In this document: positions 3,361 to 63,440 of the stretch, one piece after another
Layout: each line of letters opens with the position of its first letter
Position numbering within the stretch: the first letter of the stretch is position 1
Source of the DNA: Apostichopus japonicus
Taxonomy: Eukaryota; Echinodermata; Holothuroidea; Aspidochirotida; Stichopodidae
Assembly: GCF_037975245.1 (NCBI RefSeq)
Contig: NC_092565.1
Location: 14,105,499-14,169,498, forward strand
Direction of reading: 5' to 3'
Length of the DNA stretch: 64,000 nt
Translations under genes and position numbers: made by a program
Notes under the pieces: model-generated
Database searches by the model: none
Seen by the model: the letters and a program-made list of their open reading frames with translations, nothing else
Told to the model about the DNA's origin: nothing

Positions 3361-3489
3361 CCTGAACTTAAAGGCATTGAAGACTCACCCTAAACCTTGT
3401 GCGGCCGTCTGAAAAAGTTAACTTTCCGTTGCTTGCAAGTGACTTTTTGGTTCCTTGCTTTAGCAAAAGGAACCTATGCAGTCAGGTTG

Positions 3490-3490
<1 letters not shown>

Positions 3491-3528
<38 letters not shown>

Positions 3529-3546
3529 TATGTGTGTGTGTGTGTG
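3491..3546. repeat. (GT)n microsatellite
   Basis: About 56 bases of nearly pure GT with TATG interruptions. It stands at the left edge of the AGGTCA satellite, as a GT-rich tract also does at the start of family A copies 2 and 3. Confidence 0.95.
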
Positions 3547-3599
3547 CGTCTGTGACGCTTGGGTACGCTCTATCTCAATAAGGGAATGTTGGATTGAGG

Positions 3600-5990
3600 C
3601 CAAACTTGGACTATAGATCCGCCATATGGAGAAGGTGTGCCCTATTGTTTTTGGTGCTCACAAAGGTCACCAAAGGTCAGTTATGGTCCAAAAACCGAAA
3701 ATATTAAAACTGCAATAACTCCCAGTGCCAATGTGCGACAAGGTTGATATTTTGGGACAAGTTGTGAACTGGTTAGGGGAACATTTTCAAACTTAACGGT
3801 CATGTGATCCGAGGTCACCAAAGGTCAATTAATGATAAAGAACTAGTATTTTTGCGATAACTTGAGAACGAATTGTCCGTTTGGGTTGGGAGTTGCCTCA
3901 ATGTGATCCAATTGTCGACCCGCATCTTGGTGACCCTTGACCTCAATTTGACCTCTGGTGACCTTTTCGTGTTTTTGGGATTTTTACAGTTTCGATGCTA
4001 TTTTCAGATGTCAAAGGTACCTTCTGATCATAAATGTCAATAGGTTGACCCCGTGTGACCTTTATGTGCGAAGTTATATGAGGTCAAAGTTTTTCGGTCG
4101 GAGTTAGGACGGTTGTACAGACTTTTCGTTTTGTTTTTTGGAATCAGGAGATTAAACTACATCTGAAACCAAGGTCAAAAGGTCAAAGGTCACATTAGAA
4201 AAAATGTGCTTATTTTGGGAGGAAACGAGCAAAAAAGAAAATGTTTGGTTTTGATGCTAGATTTGGATATCAAAGGTACCTTCCGATCAAAAATGTCAAT
4301 TGGTTGACACCCGTGTGACCTTCGTGTGCGAAGTTATACGAGGTCAAAGTTAATTTTGAGACATTTAATGCAACAACTCCCAGTTCCAAGGTGTGACATG
4401 GTTGATATTTTTGGACAAGTTGCAAATGGTATAGGGGAATATTTTCAAACTTAACGGTCATGTGATCCGAGGTCACCAAAGGTCAATTAATGTCAAAACA
4501 CTAGTATTTTGGGGGTAGAAAATGGGCAAAGAAAAAAATGTTTGAATTTTTATAGTTTGATGCTCTAATTTAGGTCTCATCAATCAAAAATGTCAATAAG
4601 TTGACCCAAGGTGACCTTTGTACGTTAAGTTATATGAGGTCAAAGTTAATTTTCAGACATTTAGTGTAATAATTCCCAGTGCCAAGGTGTTACACAGTTG
4701 ATATTTTGAGACAAGTTGCAAATGGTATAGGGGAATATTTTCAAACTTAACGGTCATGTGATCCGAGGTCACCAAAGGTCAATTAATGATAAAAAACTAG
4801 TATTTTTACGATAACTTGAGAACAAATTGTCCGTTAGGGTTGGGAGTTGCTTCAATGTAATCCAATTGTCGACCCGCATCTGGGTGACCCTTGACCTCAA
4901 TTTGACCTCTGGTGACCTTTTTAGTGTTTTGTTGATTTTTACAGTTTCGATGCTATTTTCAGATGTTAAAGGTAACTTCTGATCATAAATGTCAATAGGT
5001 TGACCCCGTGTGACCTTCGTGTGCGAAGTTATATGAGGTCAAAGTCAATTTTCAGACATTTAATGCAATAACTCCCAGTTCCAAGGTGTGACAAGGTTGA
5101 TATTTTTGGAGTAGTTGCAAATGGTATAGGGGAATATTTTCAAATTTAACGGTTATGTGATACAAGGTCACCAAAGGTCAATTAATGATAAAAAACTAGT
5201 ATTTTTGGGACAACTTGAGAACAAATTGTCCGTTAGGGTTGGGAGTTGCTTCAATGTAATCCAATTGCCGACCCGCATCTGGGTGACCCTTGACCTCAAT
5301 TTGACCTCTGGTGACCTTTTCGTGTTTTGGGGATTTTTACAGTTTCGATGCTATTTTCAGATGTTAAAGGTACCTTCTGATCATAAATGTCAATGGGTTG
5401 ACCCCCATTTGACCTTCGTGTGCAAAGTTATTTGAGGTCAAAGTTAATTTTCACACATTTAATGCAATAACTCCCAGTGCCAAGGTGTGACAAGGTTGAT
5501 TTTTTTGGACAAGTTGCAAATGGTATAGGGGAATATCTTCAAACTTAACAGTCATGTGATCCAAGGTCACCAAAGGTCAGCTAATGTTAAAAAAGTAGTA
5601 TTATGGGGGGAGAAAATGGGCAAAGAAAAAACGTTTGCAATTTTTATATTTTGATGCTATATTCACGTCTCACCGATCAAAAATGTCAACATGTTGACCT
5701 CAGGGTGACCTTTGTGTTTTACGTTACATACAAGTTCAAAGTTAATTTTTTGACATTTAATGCAATTAAATCTCAATGCCAAGGTGTGACATGGTTGATA
5801 TTTTGGGACAAGTTGTGAATGGAGTGGTGGAACATTTTGAAACTTAAAGGTCATGTCATCTGAGGTCACCATTGTTATCATATCTGTTGACACGCTTGTA
5901 GGTGTCTTATATTTCTTACACTTTCGACGCCATATTTAGATCTCAAAAGTGCCTTTTGATAAAAAAATCCGATCACATTTTGTGATCACA
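3600..5990 (+). repeat. AGGTCA-rich minisatellite, about 300 and 400 bp units
   Basis: A shared anchor, aggtcaccaaaggtca with its variants, recurs at 3812, 4470, 4766, 5165, 5563 and (partly) 5857. The intervals are 658, 296, 399, 398 and 294 bases. The long units carry an extra block with gacccttgacctcaatttg that the short units lack. Between anchors the units share ttcaaacttaacggtcatg, caatttgacctctggtgacc and gtcaataggttgacc. The short open frames here are shadows of the repeat and have no recognisable product. The array lies inside a TTAA MITE. Confidence 0.92.
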
Positions 5991-6411
5991 AAAGTGTTGG
6001 TTACTTTATGGGAACATGTAGGACCACAATTACTTGGACTTTTTCAGCCCAATCTTGCTTGATAATATTAATGTATATTGTCATATACCCCAAGCAAGGA
6101 ACCACAGTGCCCTTGGGCTCTTGTTTGTTTGTGTCGCTACAAAATGCAGACAGTAATGAAAAGTGATACTTCGTTATCTTTTATCTAGACCTGATATGTC
6201 CTTCGCTGCTATTATATGTACATGTTATATGTATTGACTGTGCACTAGTGTCTAAATACCGACGGTAGCAAGCTGTGTGTGTATTTTCTGGGATCGATGG
6301 TGGTGTCTAACACTTCTGTTACACTTCATTCGAAACTAGGTCAGATTACCGGCTTGAGACGTTTGTTTGTGCGCGAGTCTTCACACCCTTTAACTCAAAT
6401 TAGTGAAAATA

Positions 6412-7061
6412 GGGGTGTTACTAAAACGAATGACAATTGCGTTGCACAAAGCGAATGACAATATGTTGTACACACTAAAAAAATGCGTTGACTAAAACGA
6501 ATGACAATAATATGACAGCACAGACATTTGCTTCAACCGGATATCACAGTTCAGACTTCGTGGGTATCTAGATCTAGTAAAGTACGGACAAGATAAAAAC
6601 GCACCTTATAGTAAGCGAAATTGTAAGTCTGATATTAAAAAGTAAATTTAACGTCATTTTTCCGATATTAATTGTTAGAAACTAACAATACTATAATCTT
6701 GAAACGGCTTCAGTTATCTTTCTATGTAAATCTATACAGAGGTAAAAAGCACAGCACTCAAGCGCATTCTCACACAAAATCTTTCCCTGTGGTTTCTATC
6801 CGTAAATTACACCAAAACCCTACAACCACGTAACATGCGATTTTCCTCAATCATTTTTGGGCAGAAAACCAATAACCGCATTTACTCCACTCCGTTAATC
6901 ATTCTATCTCCACTCAACACTGTCCTTCGTTGTCATTCGTTGTCATTCGCTGTCATTCGCTGTCATTCGCTGTCATTCGCTGTCATTCGCAAATGATAAT
7001 TTACCCTGTACAAAGTCAATTGTCATTCGGTCATTCGCTGTCATTCGTTTTAGTTTGTCCC
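6412..7061. mobile_element. 650 bp MITE with 8 bp target duplication TGAAAATA
   Basis: The left end reads GGGGTGTTACTAAAACG and the right end CGTTTTAGTTTGTCCC, so the termini are inverted copies with a short mismatch block (ACTAAAACGAATGACA is exact). TGAAAATA is present immediately outside both ends (6404-6411 and 7062-7069). Inside the right end are seven 10-mers of the form TGTCATTCGC (6921-6990), and the left arm has the inverse (GCGAATGACA) dispersed near 6430-6510. No coding sequence. An 8 bp duplication fits hAT-type or other 8 bp cutters; the class is not settled. Confidence 0.85.
6921..6990. repeat. 10 bp tandem repeat TGTCATTCGC, seven copies
   Basis: Seven consecutive decamers. 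The first two differ at one or two positions and the last five are identical. Further single copies of TCATTCG lie at 7021-7047. The array is subterminal within the 650 bp MITE. Confidence 0.95.
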
Positions 7062-7641: not shown

Positions 7642-8888
7642 ACAATAAGGTTATAATGAACTTTGCAGAGCGCATAATGAAAATATTCTGACAATCACAA
7701 CCACCTGGTATGATCAGCCTCCTGGAGTATATATGAGAGTGAATGTGGTAATGTCTGAACTGATATGCATATAAGAGTAGGATTCAGTGGGGACTGTTTT
7801 GACCTATTTCCTAGTCTTTAAATGCCTCATGCACCGTTTGCAGTTTGTTTTTTTCTTGGGAAGACCCCTATATATGGGAATCATATTTAAGAACCCCAGG
7901 GCCTAAAATCTTACCTGGATCTAGAACCCACGTGTCTTCATCTGAATAAACCATGAACATTTTGAAGAAGAAAAAACAGAATTAAATGATCAAAAAGTCC
8001 AACTTTGAATGGCAAAGTTGAAACCAAGTCAGAGCAGGGAAGAAAACTCCTAACTCTACCAGAGTATTTGCCATTATTTGGCCACATGATTACAATAACT
8101 TCCCCAAACAACCCACCCCCACCTCACACACACACTTTGAGAAGCATATCAGTACCCATAGAAATGTGTAGACAAAGGCCCTCAATAACTACCAGTCTGT
8201 CAGGGGAGTGGGTTTTGCTGAAGCGAGTGCTCCCTTGTAAAGGTAATAGATTCATAAGAATTATGAAAAAATGGGGGAATAGTCGGTTGAAATTTCGGAT
8301 ACCATGATGCCTCTGAAGCAGCTAAGACAAGGTGAAGGTGGCGTACTCCTATTAGCGTCTATAACAATCCTGTTTCAGGAAAAGTGCCAATAAGGATCAG
8401 GAAAACAACTTTTTCGCTATGATCAATTAAGATCTGCTTTTTTTTGTGGCTTGGATGTTAAAGATCATGAATAGAAGCACATGTTGTGCAAAAATTGAGG
8501 CAATTTTAGTCCTCCCAGGAGTAGCGTACAAAAATTGTTTACGACCGAGTAAAGAGGTTTGTTTACAAGTGCCAAAACTTGCTCTCATAACAAAAATCTG
8601 AATGGTCATGATAAATTGATGGTGCCATGAAAGGTCAGCTATTCAGTGATGGGTAGCGTTTAGCTAGTAAGGACTTCTATCTACACTTAGATACCACATT
8701 ACTTTTGTGATTTAGTGTGTAAGTCAATGGAACTTTTAAAGGGCGTAAGCTACCTATAGAGATTGGCGTTCCTTACTTTCGAGGGTGCATTCAACTTCTA
8801 AATTGCTCTGACGGGTTCATATGTGTGATCGATCGTCCGCGGCGGGAATTACACAAATTTGCAGTAGACACAATTTTAAATTTTTATC
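7642..8888. other. 5' flank of GINS4
   Basis: No gene is seen. The last 60 bases before the GINS4 start contain a CpG-bearing stretch (gatcgatcgtccgcggcggg, about 8827-8846) in an otherwise AT-rich region. This may mark the promoter or 5'UTR. An in-frame TAA at 8877-8879 precedes the start codon. No TATA box is evident. Confidence 0.45.
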
Positions 8889-8987: not shown

Positions 8988-11900
8988 GTAAGTCTGACGA
9001 ACTAGTAAGGCTGCAGCATATATCATGTTATAACCCCTAGGCTATGCCTTACCTACTTTCAGTGTGGCCTAGCCTAGGGAGGGCTATGCTAAGCCTATTC
9101 TTCAAATGGATTGAATTTGCATTTAATCAAGTAATGTTCAGACAAAAGACTGCCAGTATCATGTTTAGTTCATACTTCAAAAGGAAAGTTGGCTAGGTAT
9201 TTCTCCTGAGGATCTGATAGGAAATAGTAGACAGGCACTATGGCCTAGGCCTATGCAAAACTGCAGTGTTACAACACTTTATGCATGTTACACAAATACA
9301 TGCAACTCTGCAGGTGCCAACCCCATATAGTTTGGTTTAAAGACTTTGCACTGGATATTTTCCGGAAGGTCAGGTGGGAGCAGCGGTGGAGGCCATTATC
9401 ACTGCAGCATTGGCATTGCAAAACAAAGTTGTTAAAACTTGTTTCCCAACAACATAGAATCAATCCATTATTCCCTATTCATCCTAACTAAGGATGTGTT
9501 CAATCACTATTCTTTCAATGTTTCTAGTTCAATTTACATTGATTTCATGAATACACTAGAAGCTTTGTTAAAAGTAAAATTCTGCAGACATGAAAAATTA
9601 CAGCAAATGAGATGTTTCTGAAACTAACAACCAGGCATCCAGTTGGAACAGCTGCAGTTATAATTATAAATGACGCAGTTGGATTTTCCCTTTCATCATG
9701 AATAGCAATTCCACATTCTGGGAATAATATAAATTTGGGTTTGATATCATGTACAACACTCATAACATAACAAGAACTGGAAATTGCAAACAACAATATC
9801 CAGGAATGATTTAATGTTCAAATTTTGTGTAGCACTTTTGAAGGCTCTGAACTTTGTCTCTTAAAAAGTATTATGGTTTCTGTGATCAGCAAGTTGTTAT
9901 GCATGTTTGCACTCGTACAGTACTGTATAGCAAGTTCCCCATTTTGCATGACTAAAATGGCAATGTGATGCCAGATAAATTATTCCCTGAATATTCTCGC
10001 TTAGCTGTGTGCTTCTACTGTAAGCACAGGCTCATTTTGAAACCAACAGACAAAGGCAATTAAAATGCACACATGTATGTATAAGCCTGACACTGCAAAT
10101 CATTCAAAACAAATTGTTGTGAATCCTTTTGGCCAGTAGCCCATAACACCTTGTTTTACTAGTTTTGGTCAGGTACACACATCCACATATATAATTACTA
10201 ATATATTGTAAACGCAAAAATTGGTAAATTTTTTTTCTCCAATTTTTCCATTTCTCTTCGGTGTTTTCATTTAGGCTTGGCTGAACGAAAAATTTGCTCC
10301 TGATCTACTGGAATCCAAATCAGATTTGGTCGACTGCATGCTGGAACAAATAAATCAGATGGAAGAAAATTTAAGGAAATGTAAGAAGGGAGATATGAGG
10401 ATTCTGATACACAGGATGGAGGTATAGTACAACATTGTCCAAGATACATTCATTTGAAAGTGGTCTATGTATGTCTCAGCTAAATGTTGGTATTTTGTTA
10501 TGGGAAGAAAGTAACAAAGTTTGTTGAGATATTTAACAACTTTTGGCAAGTGCTATTGTTTACAAAGTAAAGTAATAACTGTTTATTCAAACTTTGTGTT
10601 TGTGTATTAACATGGAGAAATGTTTGCAAAACACAACTAGCTACTTCTTTGACAATAAAATGTCAAAAGAAGTTATTTAAGGTCAAGTATTTATTGCTGT
10701 TTTTGCATGTGAGCTTTATGACATTTTAGGCCCTGCCTTCCTGTTAGTCTGATAGGCCCTCCATACCGGTTTAATCTGGGCTTACCACTCGAACAGACTC
10801 CCTCCATTTACCCTGCAGTTCACGATTGGATTCTTGAGTGAGCAGTAGATCTGTCTCTGTGTTCACATTCATCAAGCCTAACTGTGAACTACAACTCCCA
10901 ATCGGTAACCATGCTTACAGTGCACTCAGTAACCATATCCAACAATAATTCAGCATACCCCTGTGTGTACAGTATCTCAGGCTGATGGCTGTTTCAAGTT
11001 TAAGCGTTGTTGGATTTATACAATTCTGTCTCTGTCTCTTTCAGATTGACAGGATACGATTCATCATCAGCAGTTATTTGAGGCGGAGATTAGAAAAGGT
11101 AACGTTCCATCTTCATCACCAATCTATATGATAATGCAGGATTCTAATGTTTTGTCATACACTTGTCTAACAGAAATGTTTTCCTACCTTCCCCTCATTA
11201 GTTGGATGTTTGTAACTTGTCTGAACCAGAACAAATTAAAATGTATGGTGGCACACAGAAATCTATAAAGTGGTGGTTATCATGAAAAGCCTCAAAAGTA
11301 AATCTTTTTTTGAGAGTCTCCTCTCGTACTGACAAATAATTTAATACTTACATTATGTAGACAGCTGTTGGTGTAGACATCTCAGAAAGGTAAGTTAAAA
11401 CTGCATAATAAAAGGTAATCAGAAGCAACATTGTTCCTTCATGTTTATCATGCATCTCAACAATGTATGTGAGTTTCTACAAAATGTGAATATTGCCCTC
11501 TGTCTGTAAACTGATATTGTCTTCATATATTTGTGTGGACATTAATGCAGCAATGGTGTACAGTAGGCTATCACACTGTTTCATTCCATTAAAGATGAGT
11601 GTTCATTTGGAGCGATGAGACCTAAAAATTCATTGATAGTTAGATTCTAAACCAGAAAATCCAATCAGAAGTACTTGGGGTCAGTCATAACTCATAAGGT
11701 TCTTGCCTTGTCAGTTGGTGTCATGCATAGACATTGCATAGAATGTCAAGGGATATACCAAACTGTAAGAACTGGTTGTTTGAAGGACAACCAGAAAATA
11801 TGCGTCAATTAGTTGCCTTGTAATTGCATATTGGCCACAGACCCAAGCTAGCGTTAAGGTAAAACCCTGGACTTCAAAGGTAAGTTGTACATTTTTAGTT

Positions 11901-17900: not shown

Positions 17901-20900
17901 CATAAATAACACAAACAAAGCTGATGTGCAATAAAAACCAAAAAGTAAATGAAAAACAACATGTTGAAAGCTCACAATAAGTCTTGAATATATCATTAAG
18001 GCTATTACTGTAAGTCTATCTCACATAAATAACACAAACAGAATATTAGAATTGGAAACAGATTGTTCATCCATTACAAGAGGCAGGGAAGTATGGAACA
18101 AAAGGTACATGTAGCAGTAGATTGGAAAGATGCAAAAAACTGCATAAATTTGCATATTCAATATCGATAGATAGTTACTCTTTGAGGGAGAGAATTATAG
18201 ATTAATGAATAATGAAGGACTTCTCCTCTGTGAAAATTTCAATTAGAAGTAAGTAACTCTGCCATCTGAATGCAACCATCAACTGATAAGCATTTTGACA
18301 TTTATGGGACATATCGCTTTACAGGGGCAAACAAGTGATTGCTCAAAGTGATTGTATTTTCATATTAAATGGCACACAAGAATTCTGTTTAAGCTTTTAT
18401 TCGATGATTTATCCAATTAGTATCGTTCACTTCATATCCCTGTAGCTATGCTGATGGTGTCCAGAGTCATTTTAAGTCACTTGTTTTGACCCACTTACCG
18501 CAAAATTTTCAGAAGTTAGACAGAGAGAAAACAGGTAAGATTAAAAGAGAAACGTCATGATTACTTCTGTATGAACAATTTAACGTTAGTTTATGTCCAA
18601 GGGGCTATTTTTATTGACTGGTCTCGTTATTAATTTCTCACTAATGAAGGTTCTTATTGTAAACAAATATAAGAGGGTTTACAGTGTTAGAATGATCAGT
18701 TGCAATGCTATTTCAATTTTTAATACCTCATTTTTTTACCTAAAATGTCAAAAACTTAATAGTACTCACACACAAAACCACTGCATTATTTCATTGAGTT
18801 TAGGTACAGTACATGAAGTGTGGAAAAGAATTACAGCTGATTATTATGTGCTAGAAACTGAAAGTAAGTACACAATATATGTTTAACTCTAGGGCTAAGG
18901 TGATGTTCTCATCCTAAAAGTGTTTCCCTGACAAACCTGAAAGAAGGAAAATGTCATTTGCTGTATTTTGAATGTTGGTATGAAAGAAGTTCAGAGGACG
19001 TAAATTATTGGTTCTTTCAAAAAAAATTGCATGCTTTGAGAATTTAAGTTTGATTCCTCATGATGTATTACAAACAATCCTACAGTTATACCTAGTTTTG
19101 ATTCCTTGCGGGAGGCCAAAGAAATCTAAGTGATGGTGGTGGCAAGTGTGTATGCGTGCATGTATGTATGTGTGTATGTATGTATGTGACACTTGCTTGT
19201 AAACACGGTAACTCAAAAAGTTACCGTAATAGTGGATTAACTTCATACTTGGTATGTGGATCTGTCTTATTGAGTACAAGAAGCCTATTGTTTTCTGTGA
19301 AGTTCAATGGTCATTTGGGGTCAACACTTCCTACATGGTATGTAGATTCAGTTTACTGAGTACAAGAACCTATTGACATTGGTGGAGGTCAAGGTCATTT
19401 GCGGTCAACATTTATATGAAAGTCTGAAAACCTTGTAAACATGATAACATAACAACTATATCTTTCTTGAACTTCATACATAGTATGTTCCAGCTTGGTG
19501 AGTGCAAGAATCCTATCAAAATTGGTAGAGGTCAAAGGACACATGAGGTCAACAGGCATCAAAATCTGAAAATGTTTTAAACATGATAACTCTTAAATTA
19601 AAGCTATAATTAATCTGTGAATTCTCCAATGCTATGATTTTCTTTCGGTGAACGTAGCTTGGTCAAATTCAGTTCAGTTTGGGTTCTGTGAAGGGGCTCT
19701 ATAGGCCTCAACAAATCATACCTGGTATCCAGGTAATGAAACCTGCTTCAGAGTTTATACTCTTGCTATAAACATGCACCTAAACCTCCTATCAGTTTGC
19801 CCCCTCTGAGCATCAAGTGGTCGATAGGTTATCTCAATGGGCACAAACTGGCTCAAGGGTCAAAAGGTGGAAATCTCAAATGGTGGAAAATTTTGGCCAA
19901 TGCTTCAGAAGTATTTCACAATGAATGGCTCTCCCTTAATTCTTGGACAAAGTTTACTCACTTGCCCTTGACATTAGTCAGATAGTAACTTTGAATTTTT
20001 TTGAGGACATTGTATGGTAAGGAATCACAAAGGTAGCTGTCCTTCTGGTTTCTTTCTCAGTATTATTTTGTTTGCTTTGTCCAAAGTTCAAAATGCTAAT
20101 TCCTCTGAAGGTCATTTCAAAAGGTCATTAGAAAGACAAACAAAACCTGACAACTTATCGAGATATCCCAAATTCAAAGAGTGTTAAATATTGTAAAGTT
20201 TCTTTGTCTGTAGAACAATAAAATAGAAGATAACTGATAGAAAGGAAACAAACTAAGACCGTTGAGGATCAACAATGATCAAATGATCAACACGTCACCC
20301 ACGTAGCTCACATTAATTTGCTGTTATTCTAGTTGCAGTTTCCTTCTTGTAATCATTTCATCAGTTTTGAGAATACTCTCCTCCTCCACATTGTTTTTGA
20401 GCAGCAGATGAATGTATGAATCAATTAAATGCCCTCTGTTCATACTGCGAAAGCTTTTGTCTTGCTTGAAGGTACATGTTTTCTAAATTGTTGTTGTCCA
20501 AAGAATTTGTGCGCCTGTGTTTGCGTACATCAAGGGAAACGTTTCAAAAATAGCTGAACACCTCCTATTCAACTCATGAGAAACTGGATTTTCTAAAAAT
20601 GTGATTGGAAAGTATCCCCCACCCGCCCCACCTCCGTTTACCTACCAGCTGAAATATTTGGATTAATATTAATTATCTCTATAACGTAGTTTCAGTTTCT
20701 CTAAAGTCAATGGGAGAGTATAAAATTAAACTAAAATGGTTACTGATTTCTCATATGGAATTTTTCCTTCGTCAATCAATATCATTTATATTTTATTTCT
20801 TTATAATTTTTTTCTTCAGCCCCTAAACCTGATGTAGACAGTTACGTCTTTCTTAAAGCCAACAGGGATCAGGACCAGGTATTGATCGAACCAGAGCTGG

Positions 20901-62440: not shown

Positions 62441-63440
62441 ACACAGTGTGCGCGTGCGTGTGTATGTGTATGCGACGCCTTGCTTGTAAACATGATATCT
62501 CAAGAAGGGTAACTTTGATGAATCTCATACTTGACATGTATACATGCCCCATATTGAGCGGTAGAACCCTATGATGTTTTTCTTATGGAGGTCAAAGCTA
62601 TACATAGGTCTAAGGCTGTGACTCGTTGTGAACACAATATCTCAAGATGGGAAACTGACGAATCTTATACTTGGTACGTAGATGTTCTATATTAAGTAGA
62701 ACCATATTGCTTTTGGTGGAATTCAAAGATCATTGGAGGTCTCCAGAGGAGATCAAACTGTGAAAACCTCGTAAAACGCAATATCCCCAGATGGGAAACC
62801 GTAACGAATCTCATACTTTGCGTGCACATGCCCCATATCAAGTACAAGAAGCCATATTGTTTTTGGTAGAGGTCATCAGAAGTCAAACGATTATGGCAAG
62901 CCATGTGGGACAAACACCGCATAATATATCCGCGTATTAATTGGAATTTATACACGTATTAATTGGAATATATACGCGTATATATTATTAGCCAATCATT
63001 ATGGCTTAAATATATCCGCGTATTAATTCGAATATATCCGCGTATTAATTCGAATATATACACGTATTAATTCGAATATATACACGTATCAAATAAAATA
63101 CATATGGGGATTAAATCCAATATATGCACGGATTAATTCGAATGCACACGAAAACACATTTCCGCTCTTGCTGTGTACATATACCAACGATAAATGTTAT
63201 GGCGGGCTCGCGAGATCGCTTCAAAAGCGAAACTTTACACATGTACAACACATATTCGAATTAATACGCGTATATATTCGAATTAATACGCGGATATATT
63301 ATGCGGTGTTTGTCCCACATGGCTTGCCATAAACGATGAAACCTTGTAAACAGGTTATCTCAAAACAGGAGCCATGGATACTTCTCATATACTTATCACG
63401 TGGATGTGTTATATTGAGTAAAAGAACTCCCCAGAGGTCA
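62440..63440 (+). repeat. Dispersed repeat family A, copy 3, four 140 bp units interrupted by a MITE
   Basis: Starts with a GT/GC-rich tract, then gacgccttgcttgtaaacat. Four units of about 140 bases follow, each with (g)taaac..g.atatctca, gaatctcatactt, ccatattga-taga and aggtca. The third unit is split by the MITE 62892-63331. This copy shows that family A is built from tandem units. Confidence 0.82.
62892..63331. mobile_element. 440 bp foldback MITE with expanded subterminal repeats, TSD AACGAT
   Basis: The terminal arms tatggcaagccatgtgggac and its continuation aaacaccgcataatatatcc are exactly inverted at the right end (to 63331). AACGAT is duplicated (62886-62891 and 63332-63337; AAACGAT if the boundary is moved one base). 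The arms continue as about 20-22 bp units of atacgcgtattaattcgaat. There are about seven units on the left but two on the right, so the left arm has expanded. Removing the element restores a continuous family A unit. No coding sequence. Confidence 0.88.

Follow-up and report, generated by a model that had tools for sequence, protein, structure and literature searches.

A dispersed Helentron-like element of Apostichopus japonicus with a core of slowly changing, nuclear-receptor-type half-sites

Here we analysed a 64-kb stretch of Apostichopus japonicus DNA (hereafter the window), in which an array rich in AGGTCA half-sites lies upstream of GINS4. The array is the core of a dispersed element that resembles a non-autonomous Helentron (HINE) and occupies window positions 3444-6125. 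A GINS4/SLD5 exon is found at 10275-10424 on the plus strand; the likely first coding exon, recognised by eye, presumably runs from near 8886 on the same strand. The first-pass annotation had placed the array upstream of this gene, and the element indeed ends about 2.8 kb before that exon. Between the two, just downstream of the element, the decamer CTGTCATTCG is repeated 7.1 times at 95% (6920-6990). The features of the element are as follows.

3444..6125, plus strand: one copy of the HINE-like element, first base uncertain by a few T
3449..3459, plus strand: 5' subterminal inverted repeat (subTIR) GGTTCCTTGCT, the exact reverse complement of 6093-6103
3462..3474, plus strand: internal inverted repeat AGCAAAAGGAACC, adjoining the 5' subTIR
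3492..3554, plus strand: (GT)n microsatellite found by TRF; other copies have one too
3664..3679, plus strand: DR4 AGGTCA-CCAA-AGGTCA of the 5' unit
3712..4369, plus strand: class C compound unit, 658 bp, with DR4 at 3812, minus-strand DR5-DR4 triple at 3938-3964, TGACCT-N19-AGGTCA at 4056 and 4316, and DR2-DR1 chain at 4172-4192
4370..4665, plus strand: class A1 unit, 296 bp, with DR4 at 4470 and TGACCT-N19-AGGTCA at 4612
4666..5064, plus strand: class B unit, 399 bp, with DR4 at 4766, minus-strand DR5-DR4 triple at 4892-4918 and TGACCT-N19-AGGTCA at 5011
5065..5463, plus strand: class B unit, 399 bp, with DR4 at 5165, minus-strand DR5-DR4 triple at 5291-5317 and TGACCT-N19-AGGTCA at 5410
5464..5762, plus strand: class A2 unit, 299 bp, with DR4 at 5564 and a minus-strand DR5-spaced pair at 5695-5711
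5763..6087, plus strand: partial last unit and right flank, resembling the 3' end of an autonomous Helentron
6088..6120, plus strand: 3' subTIR AGCAAGGAACC (6093-6103) within the palindrome CCCAAG (6089-6094)/CTTGGG (6112-6117)

The ends of the element were located by comparison with 18 other copies on contig C1. Counted over the five longest aligned pieces listed per locus, similarity begins at window 3437-3447 in 14 of the 18 and stops at 6125-6130 in 12. One C1 copy, L011, is 99.5% identical to the window element over 2,690 bp. The left end reads GGTTCCTTGCT-TT-AGCAAAAGGAACC and continues into a (GT)n-rich tract. The right end was located in 13 other copies; 11 of them have the same CCCAAG...CTTGGG palindrome (6089-6117), and two have it with an extra base. 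TT flanks both sides in all 11 copies with both ends found, where the T of the element and the T of the target are not separable. The longest stop-to-stop frame inside the element, located in the repeats, is 101 amino acids, and there is no long coding frame. The element thus combines the features of a HINE: sharp ends, dispersed copies, no long frame, subTIRs within the expected range of about 11-15 bp with a 5' inverted repeat, and a 3' palindrome. A canonical Helitron was considered and rejected, as the ends show neither CTRR nor a target between A and T, and the T-rich flanks and subTIRs fit Helentrons.

The element is present in hundreds of copies in the genome. The DR4 16-mer AGGTCA-CCAA-AGGTCA occurs 4,843 times in 671.6 Mb, compared with zero occurrences of the same pattern read backwards, and the genomic matches repeat the 148-658-296-399-399 spacing of the window. 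A 27-base motif from the 3' end, with one free base, has 625 copies (reversed control, 0), a count that takes in autonomous copies too. The array had initially been described as a satellite. TRF reports only 2.6 tandem copies of the 399-bp unit in the window, and the unit block recurs at many separate loci with common element ends, so we rejected a local or classical satellite; the array consists of the central repeats of a dispersed mobile element. The idea of a special receptor platform near GINS4 is likewise not supported: this is one copy of an element that recurs genome-wide, with the 99.5% identical copy on another contig.

A probable autonomous partner is found in the same genome. Helitron_like_N (PF14214) gave 50 genome matches, and many of them, several with stops, accumulate locally at about 15.7-24.3 Mb of contig C17. 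Two autonomous copies carry long open frames, of 2402 amino acids on contig C12 and of 2410 on contig C17. The C17 frame, scanned in two pieces, contains OTU, Helitron_like_N (E 4.5e-28), PIF1 (E 7.2e-23) and Exo_endo_phos (E 4e-10), which is the domain set expected of a Helentron. This copy is a Helentron, with Rep, helicase and endonuclease in one protein. The last 708 and 627 aligned bases of the C12 and C17 copies are 85% identical to the HINE 3' end; the final 60 bp of autonomous copy and HINE align with 56 identities in 61 columns, and 10 of the 11 bases of the 3' subTIR match. Partners with common ends would be expected to reach at least 80% over these 60 bp, and members of one family to have all 11 subTIR bases identical. 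Because a matching 5' subTIR was not found in these two copies and one of the 11 bases of the 3' subTIR differs, we regard the pairing of the HINE with this Helentron as likely rather than proven. Both autonomous copies retain two unit remnants at the 3' end, with three exact half-sites, and their remnant DR4 is degenerate (AAGTCA-CCAA-GGGTCA). As judged from the sequences compared, the anatomy of the element and the 3' end common to it and the autonomous Helentron show the array to be a HINE central repeat block.

We next consider the half-sites themselves. Positions 3600-5990 contain 38 exact AGGTCA half-sites on the two strands; 500 dinucleotide-preserving shuffles of the same region averaged 1.28 and never exceeded 6. 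AGGTCA is the commonest 6-mer of this region with both strands pooled, and the whole 64-kb window contains 86 half-sites against 33 expected. Receptor-type RGKTCA direct repeats spaced 1-5 bp are present as DR4, DR5, DR2 and DR1, all with exact AGGTCA. The DR4 AGGTCA-CCAA-AGGTCA occurs six times. The first-pass annotation had five of these, four of them correctly (3812, 4470, 4766 and 5165) and one at 5563 that actually starts at 5564, and had overlooked the one at 3664. Its three reverse DR5 elements, TGACCT-CAATT-TGACCT at 3938, 4892 and 5291, are all present, and each is followed by CTGG-TGACCT to form a minus-strand DR5-DR4 triple (3/3). The single DR2-DR1 chain, AGGTCA-AA-AGGTCA-A-AGGTCA, also lies where it had been reported (4172-4192). 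TGACCT-N19-AGGTCA, which is absent from that annotation, occurs five times (4056, 4316, 4612, 5011 and 5410). Both the abundance of half-sites and their spacings are far above chance.

If the half-sites matter to the element, they might change more slowly than the sequence between them, a comparison that the first-pass annotation had put forward as a check. Units were excised from a fixed anchor point and aligned class by class, and CpG columns were excluded from the young-copy, class-consensus, N19/spacer and diverged-copy tests. Twenty copies were drawn from the 40 loci that best match the 3' end of the window element (910 candidates), a choice made without regard to half-sites and biased towards young copies; together with the window they form a 21-locus set. 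The 20 young copies have 7 events in 108 half-site columns and 113 in 890 others (ratio 0.44-0.51, P 0.1), a depletion that is weak and suggestive. For the B units of the 21-locus set, private variants occur at an equal rate in half-sites (9/42 columns) and elsewhere (67/337), while shared variants number 0 at half-sites and 42 elsewhere (Fisher P 0.013). Between class consensuses, 0 of 42 half-site columns vary among B-type units compared with 51 of 341 others, a value that 4 of 382 shifts equalled or undercut; A-type units alone show no significant difference (2/18 compared with 62/276, P 0.38). The first conservation test, on young copies and consensus units, was strongly positive only for B units. 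Within the 21-copy set, half-sites and direct-repeat spacers do not differ in conservation (16/132 and 4/33 columns variable, P 1.0), and the N19 of TGACCT-N19-AGGTCA is more variable than the half-sites (16/47 compared with 16/132 columns, P 0.0016).

Because only shared variants were depleted in the young-copy B units, we brought in more diverged copies, 37 of 39 aligning well enough for this test (L014 and L017 were dropped). The strongest test covers the first 1,064 bp of ten copies with more than 3% divergence. Here there are 6 distinct substitutions in 108 half-site columns and 232 in 902 others, and 0 of 5000 permutations gave a value as low. The spacers inside the direct repeats carry 9 substitutions in 24 columns. 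The 18 C1 copies came from the first 100 places of an exact DR4-CCAA search and are biased for this motif; with the motif left out, the diverged copies still give 5/72 compared with 227/890 (P 0.00066). Events per site are 0.33 for AGGTCA, 1.33 for GGGTCA, 2.57 for ATGTCA and 1.45 for all windows. Among other recurring 6-mers, AGAAAA scores below AGGTCA and three more tie with it; all four have just 3-4 sites apiece.

Adding the C1 copies also allowed shared and private variants to be compared, with CpG columns excluded from the control windows only. Half-sites carry 4 variants shared by at least two loci, whereas random 6-mer windows give 24.0 +- 4.7 and none of 2000 draws fell so low; the 4 become 5 if one class C half-site with majority GGGTCA at all loci, which fell out of the mask, is counted. 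Private variants number 22 against 35.3 +- 5.6 (P 0.0085); a private variant is one found at a single locus of the sample, and it need not have arisen after insertion. The private depletion is driven by class C (3 compared with 14.5), and class B is neutral (15 compared with 14.4 expected). Read by eye, most half-site changes fall outside the receptor-tolerated RGKTCA, which accommodates 3 of the 22 private changes and 1 of the 4 shared ones; the sole fitting shared change, AGTTCA, is also the most widespread, at 31 loci. Half-sites are thus better kept than the intervening sequence among diverged copies and between unit classes of B type, with no significant difference in the 20 young copies or in A-type units alone. 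Statistically, the half-sites stayed constant while source lineages and unit classes diverged. Since the depletion is weak in the 20 young copies, we assign the constraint to the amplifying lineages, and it is not demonstrable on each copy.

Half-site repeats are not confined to this element. Genome-wide there are 17,306 exact DR4 with any spacer (4,843 with CCAA) compared with 159 for the reversed motif, and 16,470 exact DR1 compared with 169, both about 100-fold above control; exact DR3 is 2.6-fold above it (498 and 189). Over all spacings of 0-12 the counts are 46,129 and 2,326. These numbers reflect repeat copies and not independent origins. A second dispersed family consists of monomers of about 140 bp with the DR1-DR4 cluster AGGTCA-A-AGGTCA-N4-AGGTCA, and is also present in the window at 19196-19601, 62483-62878 and 5-83. 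Its profile matches the HINE 5' unit with E 3.4e-6 within the window and gives no match once half-sites are masked, so homology between the two, as read from this profile, is suggestive only. For this family we took 40 loci by a 68-base stretch free of half-sites (40 of the 59 places listed, and 40 of 607 candidates scored). Its half-sites are better kept than the downstream columns (ratio 0.52, 1 of 66 shifts), with identities of 0.85 upstream, 0.89 in half-sites and 0.79 downstream. We rejected this as support for constraint, because distance from the selected stretch acts as a confounder.

Among 19 non-HINE loci with DR4 or DR1, 6 match the second family with half-sites masked at E <1e-4, and L049 at 0.017. 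Three loci, L034 (859-1400), L038 and L042, belong to another repeat, 92-97% alike over several hundred bp and containing AGGTCA-TTTG-AGGTCA; BLAST found no similarity between it and the HINE. The remainder of the 19 could be assigned to none of these families. Exact DR1 is present at L044, L045, L047, L048 and L052, where no similarity to the HINE or the second family was found; they could represent further repeats or genuine response elements. A short half-site tandem array lies at C1:5806343-5806526, with AGGTCA-TATG-AGGTCA every 42 bp in at least 5 copies. In the same genome, split COX1 pieces at 14.7-31.2 kb of contig C29, beside an intact copy on C35 (16,099 bases), are candidate nuclear mitochondrial DNA copies or a second mitochondrial assembly. 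The C35 COX1 has no internal stops when translated with the echinoderm/flatworm mitochondrial code, in which AAA is Asn, and its protein looks like that of an echinoderm rather than a flatworm.

Our best guess, a tentative one that we hold with somewhat less than even confidence, is that the HINE core keeps its half-sites because a host nuclear receptor binds them. The motifs and their slow change suggest, and do not prove, such putative binding. Receptor dimers use RGKTCA direct repeats spaced 1-5 bp, DR4 and DR1 included, according to the available text of PMC1785376. The A. japonicus genome has 48 matches to the nuclear receptor domain zf-C4, counted exon by exon. Weighing against this reading are the weak depletion in young copies, the lack of effect in A-type units alone and in private variants of B units, the prevalence of half-site changes outside RGKTCA, the degenerate DR4 of the autonomous copies and the long DNA stem that the opposed DR4 blocks can form. 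In the proposed mechanism, the HINE would be moved by the Rep, helicase and endonuclease of an autonomous Helentron in the same genome. A host nuclear receptor would bind the half-sites in germ cells or early embryos and open or mark the chromatin of the element, such that copies with intact sites would be multiplied more often. An inserted copy is probably freed from this constraint and decays, although the sites, scattered in their thousands, could also form a sink for receptors or supply raw material from which enhancers arise.

The constraint on AGGTCA in source lineages would fit any sequence-specific binder, and AGGTCA may instead be a recognition site for the Helentron Rep, its helicase, an accessory protein or a host factor other than a receptor. 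The two unit remnants and three exact half-sites at the 3' end of the autonomous copies are consistent with this. However, these sites are few and degenerate, such that the protein encoded there seemingly needs none, and the central repeats of other HINEs are unrelated in the available text of PMC7492417; we consider this alternative unlikely. We judge a structural explanation to be quite unlikely, namely that opposed half-sites pair as hairpins in a single-stranded rolling-circle intermediate with no receptor involved. The forward DR4 would pair with the reverse DR5-DR4 triple, and TGACCT with AGGTCA across the N19. As DNA, the 399-bp unit folds at -45.5 kcal/mol, more stably than any of 100 shuffles (-36.5 +- 4.0; z -2.25), the main stem pairs the opposed DR4 and DR5-DR4 blocks, the inverted pairs extend over 17-18 bp at 94%, and the direct-repeat spacers of the 21-copy set are as well kept as the half-sites. 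In diverged copies, though, the spacers change far more than the half-sites even though the stem includes them (9/24 compared with 6/108, Fisher P 0.0001 with events treated as columns). Changes from AGGTCA to AGTTCA (31 loci) and to GGGTCA (all ten diverged copies) also occurred with no matching change in the partner half-site, and A units, which lack the reverse triple, still keep their DR4.

It may also be that the half-sites have no function, an old AGGTCA-rich monomer having been amplified by chance, with the apparent constraint arising from sampling, gene conversion or alignment noise. A second AGGTCA-rich family that matches the HINE 5' unit, the confounded half-site conservation within that family and the weak signal in young copies would all fit such an origin. 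Against it, permutations within the same alignments reached the observed values in neither test (0/5000 and 0/2000), near-cognate words drift freely, and the signal survives omission of the motif by which copies were selected. This reading, too, seems unlikely to us, and receptor binding remains the explanation that we prefer.

Several known systems resemble the A. japonicus element in part. HINE or DINE-1-like elements of mites and Drosophila (PMC4067079) and Cg_HINE of Crassostrea gigas (PMC7492417), as described in the available text of both papers, have the same 5' subTIR with adjacent inverted repeat and microsatellite, the same satellite-like central repeats, a 3' subTIR with palindrome, T-rich sites and no long frame. 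In Cg_HINE the left flank is made up of subTIR, inverted repeat and microsatellite, and the right flank of subTIR and palindrome. According to PMC4067079, such elements have also been described from sea urchin; the Tsp transposons appear among its references. The central unit of Cg_HINE is mostly 140-180 bp, whereas the A. japonicus units are 399, 296 and 658 bp, and the dense AGGTCA half-sites are particular to the latter; the main text of PMC7492417 contains neither 'GGTCA' nor 'protein binding'. The multiplication of receptor direct repeats to very high numbers by a mobile element is similar to the expansion of DR2 in Alu (available text of PMC1785376). There, however, the DR2s arose mostly through CpG deamination of a non-consensus motif and for the most part sit in elements that have lost their mobility, while the A. 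japonicus HINE sites are present and kept in the source lineages, and DR4 and DR1 rather than DR2 are dominant. The ISX Helitron of Drosophila miranda has likewise spread sites for a host regulator, in that case MSL recognition motifs. For ISX, binding was measured and the copies serve dosage compensation, according to the available text of PMC4384637, whereas the A. japonicus motifs are recognised by sequence and none of the copies is known to act for its host. HINEs with satellite-like cores, and mobile elements that multiply receptor sites (Alu DR2, ISX), are thus already known. Among the papers listed in open-access literature searches, several of which covered 10-15 of hundreds or thousands of hits, we found none on receptor half-sites in Helentron central repeats, and a HINE core with receptor half-sites as its slow-changing part, not met among them, may be new.

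Exact DR4 and DR1 are so abundant here that anyone looking for response elements by motif will find chiefly repeats. A wider reading, which we consider doubtful, is that rolling-circle elements in this lineage of echinoderms need a nuclear receptor of the germline. They would have collected and kept clusters of DR4, DR5 and DR1, perhaps in more than one family. The resulting exact DR1 and DR4 sites, tens of thousands in all, would make the chromatin of the elements accessible, titrate the receptor and tie element activity to a hormone or orphan-receptor signal. The central repeats of HINEs are usually regarded as passive, satellite-like cargo. Here, half-site changes across subfamilies are about 4-5 times slower than those of the surroundings, so this cargo may matter for the spread of the element. 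If receptors do bind, the genome would offer hundreds of near-identical arrays in which to probe how a mobile element uses a host receptor and how such sites may buffer its signalling.
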